Assembly (NCBI GenBank): GCA_033762255.1
Contig: JANRLT010000029.1
Location: forward strand, 62,001-126,000
DNA from: Pirellulales bacterium
Lineage (GTDB): Bacteria; Planctomycetota; Planctomycetia; Pirellulales; JALHPA01
Direction of reading: 5' to 3'
DNA: 64,000 nucleotides
The translations under genes were made by a program, and so were the position numbers. Positions 19,094 to 28,437 of the stretch are shown piece by piece; within the stretch, counting starts at the first letter, position 1; each line of letters starts with the position of its first letter. Under the pieces are notes generated by a model. That model was not told where the DNA came from. It made no database searches and worked only from the letters and a program-made list of their open reading frames with translations.

Positions 19094-19167
19094 GGGCGGT
19101 TAGCTCAGTTGGTTAGAGCGACTGGTTTACACCCAGTAGGTCGCGGGTTCGAATCCCCCACCGCCCA
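19094..19167 (+). tRNA. tRNA-Val (anticodon TAC)
   Basis: A 74-nt cloverleaf: acceptor GGGCGGT (19094-19100) with ACCGCCC (19160-19166), D-arm GCTC...GAGC, anticodon arm ACTGG-TTTACAC-CCAGT giving anticodon TAC, T-loop TTCGAAT and discriminator A. CCA is not encoded. The T-stem GCGGG/CCCCC has one C-C mismatch (positions 50/64). The gene's 3' 20 bases form the attachment core of the integrated element that follows, and the element's integrase stop codon lies inside it. Confidence 0.93.
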
Positions 19168-20461
19168 TTGGATATGTTTGCCGTTCCCGGGAATCTGCAA
19201 ATTCCCCACGATTTTCGCATATCGGGTTTCTTGAATACCCCCCAGTTCCCCCTAGTTCCGCAACTGTTTGCCGTTCTATTGCCGTTTTTTTCGGGGCAGT
19301 CAATTTTTCTTTTGAGTATTCACCCCGCACCGCTTTAGCGTGCTCATCACCTTTGGCCCGCAAGTAGTGCTTGGCCATCACTTCCACGGAATGACCGAGC
19401 CATTCCGCCGCCTTGGGAATAGGCACCCCGGCTTCGATGAGGTCCGTTTCGAATGATCCCCGCATGGCGTGCCATGCCTTGGGCCATGCTGGCAATCCGG
19501 CTTTGGTCCGAATGTCCATCAAAGTTGACCGCAGGTTCGTATGACGCCAGTCGCCGTTGCAATCGGCTTGGCTTCGATGTTTGGAAATAACGAATACCGC
19601 CCCCTCTGGGGCCATATCCCAACATTCCTGCAAATATTGCCGTATCTCGGGGAATATGGGGATTGTCCGCGTTTGCTTGGTCTTGGGGCTGTGGAACATG
19701 ATTTCTTCCCGTTCCCAGTTCACGCTTTGCCATTTCAAGGTTAGGGCTTCGCAGGGCACCCGGAATCCAGCAAACCGCGATAGTGCCACCAGCAACCGCC
19801 ATTCGGCATTAGGGCAATGCTCGATGAGTCGCCGGGCCTGTTCCGCTTCTACGTACACATTGCGGGAGTCATCAACGGTGGCTTTAATTGAAACTTTGTG
19901 GAATGGATTTTTGCGAATCACTTTAGGGGTCAAATCGGCGAATATCGTCTTGATGAGTCGCAATCGCTTATGGGCCGTGCTCGGGGCGAGGGTCCGCTTC
20001 TGTCCCTTTTGTTTGACCAACTTTTCCGACAAGAGCCAATTCTTAAAAGCTTGGGCGTGCTCGTGGTGAATCTCATTCACTTTTTTATCCGCCCCAAAAA
20101 ATTGGATGAGTGAATCGGTTGATTGTTTCCAAATGGCTTTGGTGGCCGCCGCTCCCGCGTGCGAATCGACATATCTTTGTGCCGCCTGGGCCACGGTGGG
20201 AATTACCTTGGCCTGGGGGCATAGTCCGCCATCGGCCAACTTTTTGTAAAACTTGGGTGTTAGACCCCGCAACCAGAGCTTGGCTTCCTGGGGCATCCCC
20301 GCGTTTTTATCGCGGGCGGATTCCAAGAGTTCGACAAAATATTCCACGCGTTTGGCTTCGGCTCGTTTCATCACCCCCAGGCTGACCGCTTTGCGTTTGC
20401 CATCGGCATCAAAGAATTGCACGTGCCACCGTCCGGCTTTGGTACTGTAAAGGTTGGCCAT
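19127..20461 (-). CDS. int: tyrosine recombinase/integrase (integrated form)
   Basis: Site-specific recombinase of 444 residues in the integrated state. The catalytic set is complete: R234 (RFAGFRVPCEAL), strand lysine near K260 (SPKTKQTRTI), H331-AM-R334 (WHAMRGSF), H357 (WLGHSVEV) and nucleophile Y366 (KHYLRAKG). A SAM-like core-binding domain precedes it (about residues 88-175). The last seven residues (EPATYWV) and the stop codon are encoded antisense to the tRNA gene. In the circular form the frame leaves E438 and runs 73 codons further into 27309-27088, so this C-terminus is created by integration. The start ATG lies 1 bp from the HTH gene's stop; an AGGAAA is upstream. Confidence 0.93.
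   Translation of the reverse strand: MANLYSTKAGRWHVQFFDADGKRKAVSLGVMKRAEAKRVEYFVELLESARDKNAGMPQEAKLWLRGLTPKFYKKLADGGLCPQAKVIPTVAQAAQRYVDSHAGAAATKAIWKQSTDSLIQFFGADKKVNEIHHEHAQAFKNWLLSEKLVKQKGQKRTLAPSTAHKRLRLIKTIFADLTPKVIRKNPFHKVSIKATVDDSRNVYVEAEQARRLIEHCPNAEWRLLVALSRFAGFRVPCEALTLKWQSVNWEREEIMFHSPKTKQTRTIPIFPEIRQYLQECWDMAPEGAVFVISKHRSQADCNGDWRHTNLRSTLMDIRTKAGLPAWPKAWHAMRGSFETDLIEAGVPIPKAAEWLGHSVEVMAKHYLRAKGDEHAKAVRGEYSKEKLTAPKKTAIERQTVAELGGTGGYSRNPICENRGEFADSRERQTYPMGGGGFEPATYWV
19148..19167. repeat. attachment site core, left end (attL)
   Basis: Twenty bases covering the T-loop to the discriminator base of tRNA-Val, repeated exactly at the other end of the element. On the minus strand the same bases encode integrase residues up to Glu438. 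Confidence 0.92.
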
Positions 20462-20462
20462 G

Positions 20463-20681
20463 TTATTTGTTTCCTGGGGGTTGTTCTGTCACAATTACCC
20501 GCAACCGCAGCACCCGGGCCACGCGGTCCAGGTTATCAAGGCTAAGCCCTGCTTGCTTGTGCACAAATCGATGTAAACACTCGGCGGGTACTTTGGACAA
20601 CTGGGCCAAGCGATAGCGGCTCATGCCGCAATTCAAAATCGCTTGACGGATGCCATCGGTAAAGGTTTCTCTTTTTGCCAT
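20463..20681 (-). CDS. small HTH regulator upstream of int
   Basis: DNA-binding protein of 72 residues with an XRE-like helix-turn-helix (GMSRYRLAQLSKVPAECLHRF, about residues 19-39), then LDNLDRVARVLRLRV. The ATG at 20681 sits only seven bases after the -10 box of a strong promoter, so the mRNA is probably leaderless. A palindrome, ATATAC-N4-GTATAT, overlaps the -10 box and reaches the start codon, which suggests autorepression and control of int. Its stop lies 1 bp from the int start. A longer frame from a TTG at 20717 would begin inside the -35 box and is rejected. Confidence 0.82.
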   Translation of the reverse strand: MAKRETFTDGIRQAILNCGMSRYRLAQLSKVPAECLHRFVHKQAGLSLDNLDRVARVLRLRVIVTEQPPGNK

Positions 20682-20717
20682 ATACACAAGTATATCGGCA
20701 TGTTGATTTACAGTCAA
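20676..20717 (-). promoter_or_regulatory. promoter and operator of the HTH-int operon
   Basis: On the minus strand: TTGACT (20712-20717), 17-bp spacer, TATACT (20689-20694), then seven bases to the ATG of the HTH gene. The palindrome ATATAC-TTGT-GTATAT, extended by TGCC/GGCA arms with one unpaired G, covers 20676-20700 and thus both the -10 box and the start codon. A protein bound here would block RNA polymerase. Confidence 0.7.
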
Positions 20718-20831
20718 TTAGGTTGATTCTCAAATTTGCCATTAGCGGGCCGGTTGGTCGGTTGGTATCCAAGGTCGCATTCATGGTCAAATCGCTTTGT
20801 AATGCAATCCTGTGCGGTCGGTTTTTCGCCA

Positions 20832-21000
20832 CCGCTGCATCGGGAGTGCTTGGCTTGGCAAGTAGGTACAAAGTAGTAGGTTCAAAATTGGAATAATTAC
20901 AATTTTGAAAACGCACAGCCACGTTTACAAACCGCGTAGCCGACAATCGCTTCCTCAACCGCTGCATCGGGGGTGGAGGGCGCGGCCAGGAGGTATAGGG
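20832..21000. repeat. pair of diverged direct repeats in the element
   Basis: CCGCTGCATCGGG occurs at 20832-20844 and 20959-20971, each followed by a related ~30-bp sequence (GGC...GGC-AG-AGGTA). The 322-bp segment upstream of the HTH promoter shows no credible gene. The repeats could be integrase arm-binding or partition sites; nothing in the sequence decides. Confidence 0.5.
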
Positions 21001-21004
21001 TGGA

Positions 21005-21136
21005 TTAGTCAAAAAACGACAATTTGTCGGATTTGAATCTGCCTGCCACCTGCATCATTCTCTGTGCGTTGCGCTCACTCCAGCCAAACTCTTTCTCCAG
21101 CCACTTGCCGAATTCGCCGTGAGGTAGGTTGGTCAA
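21005..21136 (-). CDS. short DUF3102-like fragment, possibly coupled or degenerate
   Basis: A 43-codon frame starting with TTG. It reads LPHGEFGKWLEKEFGWSERN then AQRMMQVAGRFK, which resembles the second half of DUF3102 domains found on phages and plasmids. It overlaps the preceding 75-codon gene by TTGA. The first half of the domain is missing, so this is either a remnant, a frameshifted product of the upstream gene, or a genuine very small protein made by translational coupling. Confidence 0.45.
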   Translation of the reverse strand: MTNLPHGEFGKWLEKEFGWSERNAQRMMQVAGRFKSDKLSFFD

Positions 21137-21360
21137 AATGGCAAATCAAGCGGATTAGGTTCCCGGTTGGCATACAACTTGGCCTCCGCCAAAAACGCCC
21201 TGATGCCTGCCCGCTCTTGGTCGGTCTCTGGCCCCCTGACCTGGGGTAGGTCAAACGTCACTTCCGCCACCTGCCGGACGTTCAATTCCACGGGCCATAA
21301 CTCCCCTTGCCGGTCTACCGTTTGTCCCCGCCCCCGTCGTTTTTTGGTTTTTGCTGGCAT
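21133..21360 (-). CDS. small hypothetical protein of the element
   Basis: A protein of 75 residues with a basic N-terminus (PAKTKKRRGRG) and a segment ERAGIRAFLAEAKLYA likely to be helical. No family recognised. It lies downstream of the iteron-like repeats, in the same direction as repA, and overlaps the DUF3102-like fragment by four bases. Confidence 0.5.
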   Translation of the reverse strand: MPAKTKKRRGRGQTVDRQGELWPVELNVRQVAEVTFDLPQVRGPETDQERAGIRAFLAEAKLYANREPNPLDLPF

Positions 21361-21400
21361 CCGTGCCCCCTGTTAAATTGGGTAATCTGCAAACCGTTTC

Positions 21401-21520
21401 AAAGTGTGCCAAGTTTCAAAGAGTGCCATATACATTTTCTGTTGGCACACTTTAAATCCAGACGGGAAAATACGGGTCCAAATCAAAGTGTGCCAACTCA
21501 TCGGGTACATGGCACACTTT
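21401..21520. repeat. iteron-like repeats next to the repA-like gene (candidate origin)
   Basis: Five copies of AAAGTGTGCCA: direct at 21401-21411, 21418-21428 (one mismatch) and 21485-21495, inverted at 21443-21453 and 21510-21520. Copies 2/3 and 4/5 form inverted pairs with the same 14-bp spacer; copy 1 stands 17 bp from copy 2. The array begins 15 bp downstream of the repA-like stop. Clustered 11-mers beside a Rep gene are typical of plasmid origins; an operator is the alternative. Confidence 0.75.
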
Positions 21521-21534
21521 AAAAGTGATACGCT

Positions 21535-22809
21535 TTAAAAATCCACATTGGGGAGTTTCCAGGTCCACTTGCCATGCCGCCCCCCCTGCCGCTCACTAAG
21601 GATATTTAGCTCCCCCTTGGCCCGCCATAACGTCCGCCTGGGGATGCCTTGGGCCTGGGCCATTCTCTCTAGCTCGCCGCTCTCTTTTGGTCCAAACTCC
21701 AGGGCCGATTGCAAAAACGCTATGGCACCGTCCAAGCTTTCCGCTTTCCGGTCGCCGCCGCCGGGCTTATGGTTCAAAGCTTCGTCGGCGGATATTTCCA
21801 CGGGGTCCGCACCCCATGCCACTTGGGAATCCACAATTTGGAATGACAATCCAAACACGTCCGGGGCGATATTGCTTTTGGTTGGAAGTAGCAACCGCGT
21901 CGCTGGGTCATCGGGGCTTTTGCTAATTGTCCATGCCGTCCGCACCATGCCGACAATCGAGATAGACCCGCTTGTACGATAAATGGCATTGCCGCCGCCG
22001 CTCTTGTTTAAGTGGGCAATCAGTACAATCGCGGCCCCCGTACGCTGGGCGAGTCCTTTGAGTGGGTCCAATGCCTGCCTGATTTCGCCCGAGTCATTCT
22101 GTTTGACGCCGGCCAAGTAGCTGCTAATCGGGTCGATTATGATAAGCTTGCAATCTTCGATGCCGCTCGCCGCCTGTTCCAAAATGTCCAGGTCATGCCG
22201 CAAGCAAAATTGCCGCTCTTGGTCGCCTGTTCTTATGGCATCCAAAAGGTAAATATGGCCCACGTCGGCACCCATGCAGTCCAGGCGGGGCCGGATTGTG
22301 TCCGCCGCGTCATCCTCCGCATTTAAGATGAGCACACTTCCCCGAGGGGCCGAACAACTCGGGGCATCGGGCCACGGGCTGCCCAATGATACCCGCGTTG
22401 CCAAATCTAAGGATATGAAACTTTTGCCTAGTCCGGGGTCGCCCGATATGAGGGTCACTTTGCCGCAAGCGATACGCTGGGGCCAGAGCCAAGTTATTTC
22501 TTCGGGTTGAACGTCATTCATGCAAATGAGCCTTGGGGTTGTGGTGGTGGATATTTCGCCATCGGCTTTGCGGGCCGCGTCCTGGGCCAGGGCAATCAGC
22601 CATCTACCGTCCAGGGTTGTACCGTCCTGTTCATGGCATCTTGCATCTATGGCCAAACTGGCTAGGCAAGCTTGCTCCACAAATGCCATGCGTTCTTTGG
22701 CCGCGTCCAGGTCGATAACATCCGAAAATACGGACTGGCCATTCTCAATAATCTCAAATTTGCGTTTGCCAATTTTCGATAGCGGTCCCGCTTTGACTTC
22801 GATATTCAT
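21535..22809 (-). CDS. RepA-like AAA/RecA-fold helicase
   Basis: An ATPase of 424 residues. The RecA-like core starts after PEEITWLWPQRIACGKVTLI and has Walker A GDPGLGKS (residues 123-130), NAEDD after the next strand, Walker B LIIIDP (D226) and IAHLNKSGGG. This is the AAA_25/RepA pattern of hexameric plasmid replicative helicases, often fused to or associated with primases in phages and plasmids. The N-terminal ~95 residues contain no primase motif I recognise. The start overlaps the preceding gene by ATGA. With the iteron-like repeats immediately downstream, the context argues for autonomous replication of the excised circle. Confidence 0.85.
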   Translation of the reverse strand: MNIEVKAGPLSKIGKRKFEIIENGQSVFSDVIDLDAAKERMAFVEQACLASLAIDARCHEQDGTTLDGRWLIALAQDAARKADGEISTTTTPRLICMNDVQPEEITWLWPQRIACGKVTLISGDPGLGKSFISLDLATRVSLGSPWPDAPSCSAPRGSVLILNAEDDAADTIRPRLDCMGADVGHIYLLDAIRTGDQERQFCLRHDLDILEQAASGIEDCKLIIIDPISSYLAGVKQNDSGEIRQALDPLKGLAQRTGAAIVLIAHLNKSGGGNAIYRTSGSISIVGMVRTAWTISKSPDDPATRLLLPTKSNIAPDVFGLSFQIVDSQVAWGADPVEISADEALNHKPGGGDRKAESLDGAIAFLQSALEFGPKESGELERMAQAQGIPRRTLWRAKGELNILSERQGGRHGKWTWKLPNVDF

Positions 22810-23126
22810 GCTCGCACCCGCCGCCGCGTTGCGGTCTGTTTGGGTACGCTTCCCAATTGAATAGCCTGGGGTTCCGCTGTCGTTTCCGGCTCTTTGATTG
22901 CGATAATGGCCCGGGCCAGACCCTGGGCGAATTGGGGCATCATCCGCCGCTCGGGCAGGGGGAATTCACTCAATAGCAACTCCACCGCCGCCAGTTCTTC
23001 CCGTGCGGTTCCCACGCAATAGCGGGGCCGGACTGGCCCACGCTGACCACGCTGGCGGGCCAAATCCTGGGCCACTTCCCGCAAAATAAATCGGGCATCA
23101 AACTCTGTAAAATCCGTGTCATGCAT
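22806..23126 (-). CDS. hypothetical protein upstream of the helicase gene
   Basis: A protein of 106 residues with no recognised domain. It is rich in Arg/Ala, with a likely helical segment (EELAAVELLLSEFPLPERR) and a basic tail (TATRRRVRA). The ATG is preceded by AGGAAATTTTATC, a good ribosome-binding site. Its stop overlaps the helicase start (ATGA), implying translational coupling and perhaps a role as replication accessory protein; that is inference from position only. Confidence 0.6.
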   Translation of the reverse strand: MHDTDFTEFDARFILREVAQDLARQRGQRGPVRPRYCVGTAREELAAVELLLSEFPLPERRMMPQFAQGLARAIIAIKEPETTAEPQAIQLGSVPKQTATRRRVRA

Positions 23127-23209
23127 GATAAAATTTCCTTGTGCTATGCGGCCTGGGCTGCCACCCGTCGCCGCGTGATGTTGGGGGTTAAGCTATGGGG
23201 CCGGGCGGG

Positions 23210-24127
23210 TCAAACCGTCCGGCTCTTGTTTTTCATAATCCTCTGTGTTGCCAGGGTCTTGGCCGCTTTGCGTAATAGCTGCCGCACTGGAATAAGCAGT
23301 GTTTGCAGCTTGTCCTGCTCGGCACTTGGTGCACGTGTTTTTCTCAACCAAGCCCCGAGAGACTTCAGGCGATATTTAGCACTTCTAAAAATCTCGTCTG
23401 TCTTGGCTTTTAGGTCGCCCGGTTCGTCGCCATCAACGTCCGGGTCGGAATCGAGCAATTCAACTCGCTTGGGCTTTTGAGGAATTGCATCTTTGAGTTT
23501 CAATGCTCCCGATGCCACCTGCTGCAATGTTCCCTCTGGCACATGTCCAGCCGCTTCAGCCTTGGCTAGTGCCACCGCTTGACGGGCTTTGTGCATCGAC
23601 GTTCCCGCCCGGGCCGCCACTTTGCCAACCGTGCTGTTTGCGTCTTTTGCTTTGGTATCGCGTTTATCAGGTGGAGACGATTTCGTCTCCGCCTGCTCCT
23701 TGGCCTTGCCTGTCGGATTACCGCTCTTACCCTTCTCAAATTGCGTTGCCTTTTGCTTCGCTTCGTTCTCCGCTTCGATAAGTGGAACAATACAAGCGGA
23801 CGCCGCCACGCGTTGATCTTCGGTTAAATGACGCCGCGTTGCGTTCGTTTCGTATATCCACTGTGACAACGTGTTCTTACACTGTGGCTCCCATTCAGTA
23901 CGCGGAATATCATCACGCCACTTACCAAGCGATTTCAAATGCTCGATTGCCCGTAGGCGGTTGCGTCCATCGACCAGCACGCCATCAAAAAAGACGATTG
24001 GTTCAAGCAAGCCAAATCGCTCAATTGAATAAACCAAGTTTTCAAATTCTTCCCCTTCCACAAGAGGAAAGATTGATGCCGCTGGATGCACCTTGTAACC
24101 GCAGATTGTTTCTTGTGGTTCGCTCAT
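23210..24127 (-). CDS. ParB-like N-terminal domain protein
   Basis: A protein of 305 residues. Residues about 12-65 form a ParB/sulfiredoxin-like fold: HPAASIFPLVEGEEFENLVY, then RFGLLEPIVFFDGVLVDGRN and RLRAIEHL. A region with TRRHLTEDQRVAASA and KVAARAGTSMHKARQAVALA follows, the latter a likely HTH. The middle is Lys/Glu/Ser-rich and disordered. Such proteins on small elements may be partition proteins, regulators or CTP-dependent clamps; no ParA is present. Its start overlaps the previous gene by ATGA. Confidence 0.8.
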   Translation of the reverse strand: MSEPQETICGYKVHPAASIFPLVEGEEFENLVYSIERFGLLEPIVFFDGVLVDGRNRLRAIEHLKSLGKWRDDIPRTEWEPQCKNTLSQWIYETNATRRHLTEDQRVAASACIVPLIEAENEAKQKATQFEKGKSGNPTGKAKEQAETKSSPPDKRDTKAKDANSTVGKVAARAGTSMHKARQAVALAKAEAAGHVPEGTLQQVASGALKLKDAIPQKPKRVELLDSDPDVDGDEPGDLKAKTDEIFRSAKYRLKSLGAWLRKTRAPSAEQDKLQTLLIPVRQLLRKAAKTLATQRIMKNKSRTV

Positions 24128-24351
24128 ATGGCACCCCCATTAACTGGTTGGGCTTGCAAGCCATCGAGCCACGCGTTTAACTGCTTTGGGCGATAGAGCA
24201 CCCGCCGCCCAAGTTTGACCGCTGGAATCTCCCCCTCTCGGGTCTTTTTGCGTAACGTCTTTAAGCAAATCGAGAGTAGCTTCGCCGCCTGTTTGGCGTT
24301 GACCAAAATAGGCTTGGTTGGCTTAGGTTGGGGTTGGCGGTAGATACTCAT
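24124..24351 (-). CDS. excisionase-like MerR/HTH_17 protein
   Basis: A protein of 75 residues with the winged-helix pattern of excisionases and HTH_17 proteins: ILVNAKQAAKLLSICLKTLR, KKTREGEIPAVKLGRRVLYR and PKQLNAWLDGL. It probably binds the element's attachment region and steers integrase towards excision, or acts as a regulator. The ATG at 24351 overlaps the preceding stop (ATGA); its own stop overlaps the ParB-like start in the same way. A longer reading from 24408 is unlikely for this reason. Confidence 0.8.
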   Translation of the reverse strand: MSIYRQPQPKPTKPILVNAKQAAKLLSICLKTLRKKTREGEIPAVKLGRRVLYRPKQLNAWLDGLQAQPVNGGAI

Positions 24352-24539
24352 CGAGCACCCCCTTGGTCCGCCTGGGCGTGCTTTAAGAGTGCCCGGATTG
24401 TTCGCCACTGAAAGCGAATCTCCCCATCGGGCAAAATAACATGCGGGAGTTTCCCCCGCTTGGCCAATCGTTCGGCTTTGCCTAGCGGCCAGCCTAGTCG
24501 CCGGTCAATGTCGGCTGTGAGCAATAATCGCGGCATCAT
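24348..24539 (-). CDS. second small HTH_17-like protein
   Basis: A protein of 63 residues with a related but more diverged pattern: LLTADIDRRLGWPLGKAERL, AKRGKLPHVILPDGEIRFQW and RTIRALL. It resembles small DNA-binding proteins that read a helix and a wing (GEIRF). AGGAG lies nine bases before the ATG, making this a well-expressed start. Two adjacent small DNA-binding proteins in one operon suggest one excisionase and one regulator, but which is which cannot be told. Confidence 0.65.
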   Translation of the reverse strand: MMPRLLLTADIDRRLGWPLGKAERLAKRGKLPHVILPDGEIRFQWRTIRALLKHAQADQGGAR

Positions 24540-24620
24540 AGATAATGGCTCCTGAGTTAAGGGGCTTGCGATATGCTTCCCCTAAACTCAGTCCCACCAA
24601 CACGCCGCCAAGAGCTTTAG

Positions 24621-25316
24621 TTACCTTTTGGCACCTTTTGGCACCTTTCGTTTTCTAATCGAGCCACCAATAACCGGGGCCACTTTTCCAGTCCGGCCAT
24701 AACAATAGGTTTCCTCTCCAACTGCCTGTAGGCTCGCGGGCTTGTGTTCGCTTTTGGTAAACTCAACTTCGAGATTATCCCACCATTCCAAGAGCCGGGC
24801 CTTGTCACACTTCGGGGGCTGTCCCTTTTGGCCAAAAATAATAGGGCCGTTGTAGGAGGTGTTTAATTGCTTTATCCGCCGTTGATTCTCGGGGTTGGCT
24901 TTCATCCCCACCGCGTCCAAAATCTCGGCGAAATTAAAAAGCCATTGTTTAGGGGGCTTGTCGCTCGCCCGTCGATTGTCCGGGGCCGGTTCGCTATCGA
25001 GGGGCCGCATCGTCGCCGCCGCTGCCCGCAGTTTGCCCGCCGCGTCATCCGTTGGCTTTCCGGTCATCATCTGCCCCAGCACCACCAGGGCCGCATTTAT
25101 AGCGTGCCTGAGCGATAGCGTGCTCTCGTCGCCCGCCCGCTGTAGCTCGGTGTAAATCACCTGGGCCGGTCGATGCCCATTAGAGATTGCATAACCGCTC
25201 GGGCGAGTATCGAGGTAACGTCCGATAAGTCGCCGCATCAATGGGCTGTTGCCAGCTTCGAGGGCCTGGGCAATTGTCTCTAGCTGTTCCGCGTGCCAAT
25301 GTAGTTCCCCTGCCAT
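24621..25316 (-). CDS. hypothetical protein, first gene of the replication operon
   Basis: A protein of 231 residues. The N-terminal ~100 residues are helical (ETIAQALEAGNSPLMRRLIG, YTELQRAGDESTLSLRHAIN). The C-terminal part contains WLFNFAEILDAVGMKANPEN and ARLLEWWDNLEVEFTK, then a basic tail (GSIRKRKVPKGAKR). No family recognised. AAGGATGCGATC precedes the ATG at 25316; an upstream in-frame start at 25451 is not supported. It heads the run of genes through the ParB-like and helicase genes and stops 81 bp before the next start. Confidence 0.55.
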   Translation of the reverse strand: MAGELHWHAEQLETIAQALEAGNSPLMRRLIGRYLDTRPSGYAISNGHRPAQVIYTELQRAGDESTLSLRHAINAALVVLGQMMTGKPTDDAAGKLRAAAATMRPLDSEPAPDNRRASDKPPKQWLFNFAEILDAVGMKANPENQRRIKQLNTSYNGPIIFGQKGQPPKCDKARLLEWWDNLEVEFTKSEHKPASLQAVGEETYCYGRTGKVAPVIGGSIRKRKVPKGAKR

Positions 25317-25754
25317 GATCGCATCCTTGCCATAAGAGGTTGCGGGCGTTGACTGGCAAGAGCCTAGCTTTGTTGGCAAGGATAGACGGTCCCTTGCCAG
25401 CCAACTGATTACAATTCGCCGCGTTGCAACACGCCGAATCCACCGCTTCATAAAGTATATGCAAGTTCAGTGTGCAAAGTAACACCCCCCGCCAGTACCC
25501 CCCAACACCGCACCGCAAAGAATCTCAATTTGGAAGTGGAAAGTCGCGAAACAAAGAGCGATTTTTATCGACCGCATCGCTATAATGGCCAGAAAGTACC
25601 TTGATTAGGGGGGCACCCCCCCCCGTCATCGTAGGTTCTCCTTACCAAACGCCTTAAATGCGGTCGCCAAGCATCCTACCCCCCGAACCAAAATACTTTC
25701 TTTCCAAAAATACTTGACACGCCTGGGGGGCTTGGGGGGCGGTCTGTCCTAAAC
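25317..25754. other. element intergenic region, probable promoter region
   Basis: Gene-free. It must hold the promoter of the minus-strand replication operon. It contains C- and G-runs that can pair (GGGGGGCACCCCCC near 25606), but I cannot identify reliable hexamers. Confidence 0.45.
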
Positions 25755-25789
25755 AAAAAACCCCGCCACTGAGAGAAACAGTAGCGGGG
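25755..25789 (-). terminator. rho-independent terminator
   Basis: On the minus strand: CCCCGCTACTG, 7-nt loop, CAGTGGCGGGG followed by TTTTTT. It is a stem of 11 pairs with one mismatch (25761-25771 with 25779-25789). It ends the transcript of the 66-, 229- and 61-codon genes, separating them from the replication operon. Confidence 0.8.
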
Positions 25790-25886
25790 TCGCACTTGGC
25801 TTTACCCCATCACAAAGCTTCGAACAACCAAACGGGGCTTCGTGAATCGAAACCAAGCAAGCTTGCGGGGGATGTTCCCCGCCGTT

Positions 25887-26087
25887 TTATCGTCGGCTTG
25901 GCGGGGTCTTTAGCTCCCGCACCAATTTCTTAAGGGCGTCGATTCTGGACATGCCAGACTGTTCCAATTCCGCCACCTTGCGGGCCGTCACATTTTCAGC
26001 CGGTCGCCGCGAAAAGGGCGGCGGGTTCGGTCGATGCCATGTGGCCTGTGGCGTCGGCATGTGTCGGGGTTCTCGGTAGTCATTCAC
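25887..26087 (-). CDS. small hypothetical protein of the element
   Basis: A protein of 66 residues: a proline-rich N-terminal half (MPTPQATWHRPNPPPFSRRP) and a helical C-terminal half (VTARKVAELEQSGMSRIDAL) with basic end. No family recognised. Its start overlaps the 3' end of the 229-codon gene by eight bases, suggesting co-translation. The terminator at 25755-25789 lies downstream. Confidence 0.55.
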   Translation of the reverse strand: MNDYREPRHMPTPQATWHRPNPPPFSRRPAENVTARKVAELEQSGMSRIDALKKLVRELKTPPSRR

Positions 26088-26769
26088 TTGTCACCCCCTG
26101 ATCCACAAAACGGACGCTACCTAACGCGTTGTGTCCCGCTGGCAGTTGGTCGCCGATACGGGCCGAATCCGCATCACAAACGACGGCAAACCCACGATCA
26201 CTTTCGGGGTCAATTTGCGGTTGAATAACCTGGGTCCGGCTCCGTGTGGGATCGCACAACAACCACACCCGTGCCGCCTGTTCCGTGACGTTGGCAATCG
26301 GCGGTATGGCGTGCTGTTGCATCGTTCGCAAGCTTGAAACAGTCGCGTAACACGCAATCAAAACCGCCGCACCGTTGGCCGCCAGACGCTGGGCCAACTC
26401 CAGGGTTTCATGGCCGCGGGTTGTGTTTGGCGGCAACCATAAAACGCAATACTGGAATTGGTCGGCGAAACATTCCAAATCATCGCTGGTGAGCGAGGAA
26501 ACATGATACAGCCGCCGTAGGTCCAGTCCGTTCGCGGTCGCGGCATCCGCCAGTTTGGCGGGGTCCAATGGTCCCGCGAATAACAGGTTTTCATCGATGA
26601 GGTTGATTAGCTGCATCGTCACCGGGAGCAAGCTAGTTTGCTGCTTGTTCGGCACACAAACCAATGCGGAAACTTCACCAGGGGTGAATAACCGCCGCAG
26701 ACTGGCTAACCGTTCCCGGCCAATGCTGGCCAAGCAAACGGCACGGGGTTTTTCTAAAAACGTTGTCAT
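26080..26769 (-). CDS. hypothetical protein of the element, 229 residues
   Basis: No family recognised. Alternating hydrophobic strands and helices (VTMQLINLIDENLLFAGPLD, FQYCVLWLPPNT, AAVLIACYATVSSLRTMQ, RVWLLCDP, GFAVVCDAD) suggest a Rossmann- or RecA-like alpha/beta fold without an obvious Walker A. The ATG is preceded by the leader TTTAGGAGATTTTCC, nearly the same as that of the 61-codon gene upstream. In the circular element this gene would be downstream of int. It is the largest cargo-like gene and the best candidate for an element-specific function. Confidence 0.55.
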   Translation of the reverse strand: MTTFLEKPRAVCLASIGRERLASLRRLFTPGEVSALVCVPNKQQTSLLPVTMQLINLIDENLLFAGPLDPAKLADAATANGLDLRRLYHVSSLTSDDLECFADQFQYCVLWLPPNTTRGHETLELAQRLAANGAAVLIACYATVSSLRTMQQHAIPPIANVTEQAARVWLLCDPTRSRTQVIQPQIDPESDRGFAVVCDADSARIGDQLPAGHNALGSVRFVDQGVTSE

Positions 26770-27053
26770 GGAAAATCTCCTAAATTGGGGGTTGATTCAA
26801 AAATTGTGGGGCCGCTGGCCAAAGTGGCGGGCAAGCCCCTGGGTTATCACTTGCTGTTCACGTATGCCATTGCTTTTGTGGCGTTGCCGCCATTACCCTC
26901 TGCCAGCATCAAGGCATGAAGCTTTGAATCGTTCTTAACTAGCCAACTGGTTGCCTTGGCACGGTCGCCGTTAAAACGGCTCTTGGCTAATTCGGTAACC
27001 TTGTCATTCCACTGGGCCAGATAACTGCTCATTGAAAAATCTCCTAAATCGGG
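26770..27053 (-). promoter_or_regulatory. duplicated translation leader (two copies)
   Basis: The 21 bases before the 229-codon gene (26770-26790) and before the 61-codon gene (27033-27053) are nearly the same: CCCC(A/G)ATTTAGGAGATTTT. Both contain a near-perfect Shine-Dalgarno AGGAG at ideal distance, unusual in this window. Confidence 0.7.
26847..27032 (-). CDS. small hypothetical protein of the element, 61 residues
   Basis: A small, probably helical protein (VTELAKSRFNGDRAKATSWL then VKNDSKLHALMLAEG), family unknown. The start has a strong ribosome-binding site (TTTAGGAGATTTTTCA). In the circular form it would begin 55 bp after the stop of the full-length integrase, in the same direction. 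Confidence 0.55.
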   Translation of the reverse strand: MSSYLAQWNDKVTELAKSRFNGDRAKATSWLVKNDSKLHALMLAEGNGGNATKAMAYVNSK

Positions 27054-27087
27054 GGGGTCAAAATAAAAATCCAGAAAACTGAAATCT

Positions 27088-27309
27088 CTATTGCTTGGTG
27101 TTCACCCCCTTGCCAGAAGTGGCACTTGTATCGCTGTCATGGCCCGCTTGGGCCAGTTTGAGAATCTTTTTTCGGATGCCTGGGGGCAGGGTCGGCCATA
27201 CTTTAATGACCGCGTCCAGGTCGGAATCGAGAGATAGATTTTCGGGCTTTGCCGTTTCTGTGCCGTTATTTTCTGGCGATTGCAGAATTTCCCGGGTATT
27301 ATGCGAATC
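27088..27309 (-). pseudogene. int: displaced 3' end of the integrase gene
   Basis: Starting at the attR core, the minus strand is open for 73 codons in exactly the frame in which int enters the attL core, ending with TAG at 27088-27090. It encodes an acidic linker (NLSLDSDLDAV) and the helix-forming segment VWPTLPPGIRKKILKLAQAG, which looks like the C-terminus I recall in other planctomycete integrases. It has no start codon of its own. In the circle it would be joined to Glu438, giving a 511-residue integrase. Confidence 0.85.
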
Positions 27310-27329
27310 TTCGAATCCCCCACCGCCCA
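27310..27329. repeat. attachment site core, right end (attR)
   Basis: Exact second copy of the 20-bp core TTCGAATCCCCCACCGCCCA. It is the displaced 3' end of the original tRNA-Val gene; host sequence resumes at 27330. Confidence 0.92.
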
Positions 27330-27462: not shown

Positions 27463-28437
27463 TTACTCCACGCGAATTTGGCGGCGAGTCAGGCGGCGGG
27501 TCAGGCGGGCGCGGGTCGTGTCCAGCAGCACCGCCGCAAAGATCAACCCCGCGCGGGCGACGGGGTAGGCGTAGGGGTCGGCCCGCAATTGCACCAGCCC
27601 GGTTTCGATCGTTTGAAATAAAATCGCCCCGCACAAGGTTCCCGGAAGCAGTTTCCCTCGACCGCCAAACAAGCTGGTTCCCCCCAACACGGCGGCGGCG
27701 ATGGCGATGAATTCTTTTTCTTCGCCAAAGTTGGGGCTGACCGCGCCGGTTTGCATGAGCAACACACATCCTGAAAGGGCCGCGCACCCGCCGGACAGCA
27801 CATAAACCAGCAGTTGCAATCGCGTGACCCGCACACCGGCCTTTTGTGCGGCGAGGGGATCGCTTCCCAGGGCGTAGATTTGTCGGCCCGCCGCCGTAAA
27901 AGAAAGCCACCATTGCCCCCCGCACGCCACCAATCCAAATAGCAATATCGGCAAAGGGACCCATCCCCACCGCGCCGCGGCCAACTCGGTCACGGCGGAT
28001 GGCATGTTGAGCGCGCGGGTCTGGGTGAGCCACAAACCGAGCCCCCGCAGGATAAACAGCATGGCCAACGTGGCAATAAACGGCAGCACCCGTAACCGCG
28101 TGATCAGCAGGCCATTGATTGCCCCTCCCGCCAGGCCCACAACCACGCCGCAAGCCAGCGACAGCCAGATGGGTTGACCGGCGGCGATCATTTTTCCGCT
28201 GACGGCCATTGCCACAAACATCAAGCTGCCGATGCTTAGATCCACGCCACCCGTCAGTAGCACCAGCGTCATGCCGACGGCGGCGATACCGGTGCCGCTG
28301 GAATGTTCCAAGATATTCAGCAAATTTTGCCCCGCGAGCATTTGCGGCGCGAACGCGGCAAAAACCAAGAGCACCAACCCGCATAGTAACACGGGTGATT
28401 GATCCAATAGCCATACTAGCAGCGTGACGGGTTTCAT
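27463..28437 (-). CDS. sugar ABC transporter permease (RbsC-like)
   Basis: Inner-membrane subunit of 324 residues of the CUT2/branched-chain type, with about nine or ten hydrophobic segments. Typical features are VGMTLVLLTGGVDLSIGSLM near residue 50 and AAVLGGTSLFGGRGKLLPGT near residue 247. With the other permease (30020-30970) it probably forms a heterodimeric channel for the ATPase between them. The start overlaps the ATPase stop (ATGA). It is the last gene of the apiose locus; D-apiose is the proposed substrate by context. Confidence 0.88.
   Translation of the reverse strand: MKPVTLLVWLLDQSPVLLCGLVLLVFAAFAPQMLAGQNLLNILEHSSGTGIAAVGMTLVLLTGGVDLSIGSLMFVAMAVSGKMIAAGQPIWLSLACGVVVGLAGGAINGLLITRLRVLPFIATLAMLFILRGLGLWLTQTRALNMPSAVTELAAARWGWVPLPILLFGLVACGGQWWLSFTAAGRQIYALGSDPLAAQKAGVRVTRLQLLVYVLSGGCAALSGCVLLMQTGAVSPNFGEEKEFIAIAAAVLGGTSLFGGRGKLLPGTLCGAILFQTIETGLVQLRADPYAYPVARAGLIFAAVLLDTTRARLTRRLTRRQIRVE

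Follow-up and report, generated by a model that had tools for sequence, protein, structure and literature searches.

Joining the ends of a small mobile element in silico places three genes from its far end directly behind its integrase gene int and the promoter that precedes it. The element lies within the window, i.e., the whole stretch of 64,000 nucleotides that was analyzed, and occupies 8162 bp (19148–27309) at the 3' end of a tRNA-Val gene. In the integrated state the three genes of 61, 229, and 66 codons, referred to as the module, are found at the end opposite to int, and only in the circle do they follow it on the same strand. This anatomy is nearly certain. The module is most likely a circle-phase module, judging from the arrangement of genes and signals, and its state-dependent expression has about even odds.

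The element is bordered by the att core TTCGAATCCCCCACCGCCCA, which forms a perfect 20-bp repeat with 20 of 20 identical positions between 19148–19167 and 27310–27329 (Table 1). Its main genes are all encoded on the minus strand and comprise int, a small HTH gene, an AAA_25 ATPase, a ParB-like protein, an excisionase-type HTH_17 protein, and several more, and neither capsid nor transfer genes were recognized among them. This integrative element is comparable in size to a plasmid. In the stretch that separates the AAA_25 gene from the adjoining small genes (21401–21520), AAAGTGTGCCA is found three times in direct and twice in inverted orientation; these iteron-like repeats are a candidate replication origin. 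A search of the assembly revealed neither the circle junction nor an empty attB.

Table 1. Features of the element and its flanks, in window positions unless a locus is named
Feature	Position	Strand	Basis and remarks
tRNA-Val (TAC), integration target	19094–19167	+	ARAGORN; Rfam tRNA 69.6 bits
attL core, 20 bp	19148–19167	.	perfect repeat of 27310–27329
int, integrated form, 444 aa	19127–20461	-	Pfam Phage_integrase 3e-16; catalytic domain complete
Small HTH gene (Cro/C1-type) directly before int	20463–20681	-	Pfam HTH_26 7.5e-4, below cut-off
Palindrome ATATACacaaGTATAT over -10 and HTH start codon	20680–20695	.	direct reading
Predicted HTH-int promoter TTGACT-17-TATACT	20689–20717	-	sigma-70 scan, score 15.5
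Conserved non-coding segment past the terminator	25452–25758	.	common to three elements
Predicted intrinsic terminator, 13 pairs and T run	25759–25791	-	terminator scan; equivalents in L014 and L013
Predicted structured 3' UTR, three stems, the last being the terminator	25759–25886	-	z -5.2
Sibling 3' UTR copies	L014: 14563–14705; L013: 13911–14056
66-codon gene	25887–26087	-	76–79% and 59% identity to sibling copies; dN/dS 0.34–0.40
229-codon gene	26080–26769	-	75% and ~30% identity to C35 and C21 copies; dN/dS 0.28–0.32
61-codon gene	26847–27032	-	95% aa identity to C35 copy; dN/dS 0.16
55-nt gap with AGGAGA Shine-Dalgarno	27033–27087	-	nearly identical in the tRNA-Leu element (54 nt)
int C-terminal tail, fused to int only in the circle	27088–27309	-	in-silico circle
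attR core, 20 bp	27310–27329	.	perfect repeat of 19148–19167
Host sugar ABC permease gene, last before attR	27463–28437	-	ORF list

The int reading frame spans the att core, so that integration alters its C-terminus. In the integrated form the gene terminates within the antisense of the tRNA-Val gene, and in the reconstructed circle it reads through attP in frame and encodes 511 aa. The Phage_integrase domain covers residues 204–369 of the 444-aa form and the att crossing falls at residue 431; about 70–80 aa of tail are swapped on integration and the catalytic domain remains whole. Similar exchanges were found elsewhere. In 14 resolved elements, drawn from the source genome and its order, the frame entering from attR in phase with int stays open for a median of 64.5 codons, while the median for the remaining two frames is 18 (p = 3e-5). 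Most of these int tails carry a W..L(P)...IL motif. Furthermore, 36 of 41 int reading frames adjoining a tRNA finish inside the tRNA antisense strand. Because of these antisense ends and long open frames, the placement of attP within int seems to be a general rule among tRNA-targeting integrases of this bacterial order, with examples in the window, at L013, L023, L067, L087, L088, L089, L097, and L100, and in the C70 element. The tail added in the circle measures roughly 20–100 aa across such integrases of the order.

A first-pass annotation of this DNA had proposed that, once joined through attP, the HTH gene, full-length int, a 55-bp gap, the three module genes, and a terminator follow each other on one strand behind one strong promoter. 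The in-silico circle reproduces exactly this order: the int stop codon ends at 27088, 55 nt ahead of the ATG of the 61-codon gene (27032), and the 229- and 66-codon genes overlap by 8 nt. The promoter is borne out as well, since TTGACT-17-TATACT (20717–20689) reaches a score above the 99% null of 13.5. With TTGATA-17-TATAAT and TTGACA-17-TAAAAT at the HTH genes of two sibling elements, these promoters match 10–11 of 12 consensus positions and score 15.5–17.5. The distance from the -10 hexamer to the HTH ATG is 6–7 nt in five elements of the genome, namely the three that carry the module and two more, and this constant spacing argues for real, leaderless HTH promoters. Thus, the HTH gene in the window is probably leaderless, with its ATG 7 nt past the -10 hexamer. 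The palindrome ATATACacaaGTATAT is a candidate operator for autorepression by the HTH protein.

Along the joined path from the HTH gene through attP to the terminator, no strong sigma-70 site was seen other than the one ahead of the HTH gene. In the region from attR to the first module gene, the top sites of the three elements score 9.1, 7.6, and 7.5, compared to a mean of 7.8 and a 95% limit of 11.5 for 300 nt of random genome, in a sigma-70 consensus scan that may miss promoters of this organism or of other types. Dependence on the circle would be contradicted by a strong promoter immediately ahead of the 61-codon gene; the scan covered all three elements and revealed none. Neither a terminator nor a sigma-70 site was detected in the 55-nt gap, no terminator is predicted between int and the module in the window element (C29) and the tRNA-Leu element (C35), and a strong terminator closes the module in all three. 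The third element, C21, possesses a weak terminator-like hairpin with a T run exactly at the int stop, though hairpin and T-run matches of that kind are only moderately above shuffled expectation. Taken together, the module genes lie downstream of the main promoter of the element only in the circle, as in Tn916. In the integrated state they had been thought to lie about 6 kb away from this promoter. The separation is correct, but not the direction: they sit upstream, behind the promoter, and are therefore cut off from it rather than merely placed 6 kb downstream.

The source genome contains at least ten further integrases of this type, and three of its elements carry the module: C29 (tRNA-Val, window), C51/C35 (tRNA-Leu, L018 and L014), and C21 (tRNA-Asn, L013). 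The order of int tail, gap, and module is the same in all three, with gaps of 55, 54, and 44 nt, respectively, and their replication genes and target tRNAs differ. The int side of C21 comprises int, the HTH gene, and a DUF3987 protein; its far end consists of the int tail, the 44-nt gap, and genes of 109, 257, and 67 codons. The end of the 109-codon product resembles the 61-codon protein, and the 257- and 67-codon products are relatives of the 229- and 66-codon ones. In the tRNA-Leu element, int is found on one contig, and attR, the int tail, the 54-nt gap, and the three module genes on the other, probably because the assembly broke at a shared int stretch. The C44 and C51 contigs begin with near-identical int 5' ends and then diverge. 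DNA homology between C29 and C35 extends from 6 nt before the int stop through the terminator, and the int tails are unrelated. Thus, if the cassette carries a complete upstream promoter, there is room for it only in the 55 nt. Given that this order is shared by three elements and that the int-phase frame is open over a long distance (p = 3e-5), the operon layout is not due to chance.

All three known copies of the module stem from this one genome. Homologs of the 229- and 66-codon genes were absent from 294 genomes of the phylum, 57 relatives, and 396 genomes of the order, the other matches in the latter being short chance matches. IMG/VR, queried with the 229-codon protein and also with int, contained no homologs, plasmids yielded none either, and genome contigs searched with int gave a single distant match. 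For the tRNA-Glu (C8) and tRNA-Arg (C49) elements, attR was not found in the stretches read.

Based on their dN/dS values, the 61-, 229-, and 66-codon genes are under purifying selection. Pfam, PHROGs, and NCBIfam provide no family for any of the three products. For the 229-codon protein, a structure model with a mean pLDDT of 57 (70–86 in the core), i.e., of low to middling confidence, shows a RecA/RadA/KaiC/DnaB-like fold, with a VIA Z of 13.4 to RadA (rmsd of 2.7 over 157 residues) and a Foldseek E of 2e-5; a Walker A motif is absent from the protein. The one weak PDB sequence match of its profile (GloB, E 0.003) was set aside, since the fold comparison points elsewhere. A SulA/ImuA-like identity might also be considered.

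The predicted 3' UTR structure of the module has z-scores of -5.2 in C29 and -4.2 in the C35 copy. The third element retains the three stems as well. Among the three sequences, 10 of 38 consensus pairs show compensatory changes, and these are suggestive of a conserved RNA structure, as far as three sequences allow. An RNA model of this region recovers the three known copies and gives weak matches in four other genomes of the order. Past the terminator, the segment at 25452–25758 shares 79% over 285 nt with C35 and 83% over 145 nt with C21. This non-coding DNA is better conserved than coding DNA of the module, as the 229-codon protein shows only ~30% identity between C29 and C21. The segment is rich in runs of G and C. 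It might be considered a candidate origin of replication or transfer.

Could the module be expressed irrespective of integration? One possibility is that it has its own promoter, in the 55-nt leader or the int tail and of a type that the scan misses, and is expressed in both states, which would explain why the leader travels along. In line with this, the 54–55 nt leader is nearly identical between C29 and C35 though the adjoining int tails are unrelated. However, none of the three elements has more than an ordinary sigma-70 site there, and the gap of C21 is without such a leader. In addition, the segment CCCCC-ATTTAGGAGATTTT of the leader recurs together with AGGAGA ahead of the 229-codon gene, so at least part of the leader is a ribosome-binding leader and its conservation is partly explained by this. 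A promoter of the module's own thus seems unlikely to us; a sigma-70 promoter in the leader was rejected, as no hexamer pair rises above chance, and the idea is kept as a rival only. The integrated module might instead be driven from outside, by read-through from a host operon at attR, at a level set by the integration site. On the host side of attR, a codirectional sugar ABC-transporter operon, whose last gene encodes a permease, stops 134 bp short of the element, and no terminator is predicted in this interval; the tRNA-Leu element (C35) likewise has a codirectional host gene ahead of attR with no predicted terminator. Integration therefore need not silence the module. C21, however, has no codirectional host gene near attR, and site-dependent read-through appears quite improbable.

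It is also conceivable that the adjacency is incidental: genes at the right end fall behind int whenever the ends are joined, and their position would be kept for itself and not for transcription across attP. In further resolved elements of the order, the genes that come to follow int are unrelated and lie at short or long distances from it, and the terminator-like hairpin at the int stop of C21 would fit as well. On the other hand, a short gap and a strict order are kept in three elements with differing integrases and replication genes, no other promoter candidate is available, and the homology boundary falls at the int stop. We consider this explanation the least probable of the three.

We return to the circle-phase module as the preferred reading. 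The element targets a tRNA, and the 3' part of int contains its attP. In the circle, either excised or newly arrived, the HTH promoter would drive one leftward message comprising the HTH gene, int (511 aa), the 55 nt, and the 61-, 229-, and 66-codon genes, which would end at the structured 3' UTR and its terminator. Integration cuts this unit at attP: int is left with 444 aa and the module is stranded at the far end behind the promoter. Accordingly, the module would be switched on with excision or arrival and, once integrated, would be off or dependent on host read-through. This would be a passive coupling to the circular state as in Tn916, yet a tighter one, as the same event splices the C-terminus of int on or off. 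The 229-codon protein, RecA/RadA-like though without a P-loop, and the conserved non-coding segment might hint at work on the DNA of the circle.

Several lines of evidence support this model: the circle reconstruction; a gene order shared by three elements that differ in replication genes and tRNAs; strong HTH promoters compared to ordinary sites on the attR side; the homology boundary at the int stop; the lack of a predicted terminator between int and module in C29 and C35; the strong terminator at the end; and purifying selection. It is weakened by the conservation of the 55-nt leader itself, which could hold more than a ribosome-binding site, by the hairpin of C21, by the codirectional host genes, by the absence of a circle junction and of an empty site from the assembly, and by the restriction of the three copies to one genome. 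On balance, we give the explanation as a whole slightly better than an even chance. More tentative, and in our view rather doubtful, is the further idea that attP acts as a two-way switch, where one recombination swaps the int tail and connects or disconnects a three-gene operon with a structured RNA, both reporting integration. As for the original interpretation, its operon in the circle was right and is kept in three elements, while the claim that expression depends on the integration state goes too far as written, given possible host read-through at attR and the hairpin at the int stop of C21. Reading the module as a sensor of integration is plausible, but "sensor" also implies that its products act on this information.

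If the model holds true, a very small element ties both gene expression and the form of its integrase to its integration state by the position of attP alone, without a dedicated regulator. The principle of Tn916 would then extend to minimal tRNA-targeting elements, and the recurrent placement of attP in int would gain a function. Three independent copies of the arrangement are found in one genome, and int tails exchanged at attP are common in the order.

Related arrangements have been described in other mobile elements. According to PMC11658703 (citing Celli and Trieu-Cuot 1998), genes at one end of Tn916 have no promoter in the integrated state; once the transposon has excised, transcription from a promoter at the opposite end reaches them through the junction. 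The module resembles them in that genes at one end come to lie behind a promoter of the other end only after circularization. However, Tn916 integrates at many AT-rich sites, the genes reached by its read-through are transfer genes, and a terminator and an antiterminator are involved, whereas here a tRNA is the target, int itself crosses attP, and the module genes belong to no known family. Circle-dependent expression is proven in Tn916, while we infer it here. ICEKp1 is similar, as excision and joining of its ends place a promoter beside other genes of the element (PMC13023037), but there it is int that is switched, with the tRNA promoter driving it in the integrated state.

Integration also changes gene products in several known systems. 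For intP of the Myxococcus phage Mx8, attP is located within the integrase coding sequence, and integration gives a new 3' end with the catalytic domain kept, as described in PMC6070905 and PMC4383910; all of these traits apply to int of the window as well. In contrast to the element, the excerpts consulted describe no operon behind intP, and Mx8 is a phage, while the element measures 8 kb and no capsid genes are seen in it. The suicidal integrases of SSV1, pTN3, and pT26-2, which a review terms exclusively archaeal, share the location of attP in int, but there the gene is split by integration (PMC8371274). The catalytic part is thereby separated and int inactivated, whereas here the catalytic domain is not split from the N-terminal part and merely a tail of ~70–80 aa is exchanged. 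Integration-dependent immunity of the mycobacteriophage BPs likewise relies on an attP inside a gene, whose product depends on the integration state (PMC4557955). There, the repressor is shortened and thus stabilized, while in the element attP sits in int and not in the HTH gene, and the coupling would act at the level of the operon and the int tail. Circle-dependent transcription (Tn916) and an attP in int (Mx8) are each already known separately; here, both are combined on a minimal element.
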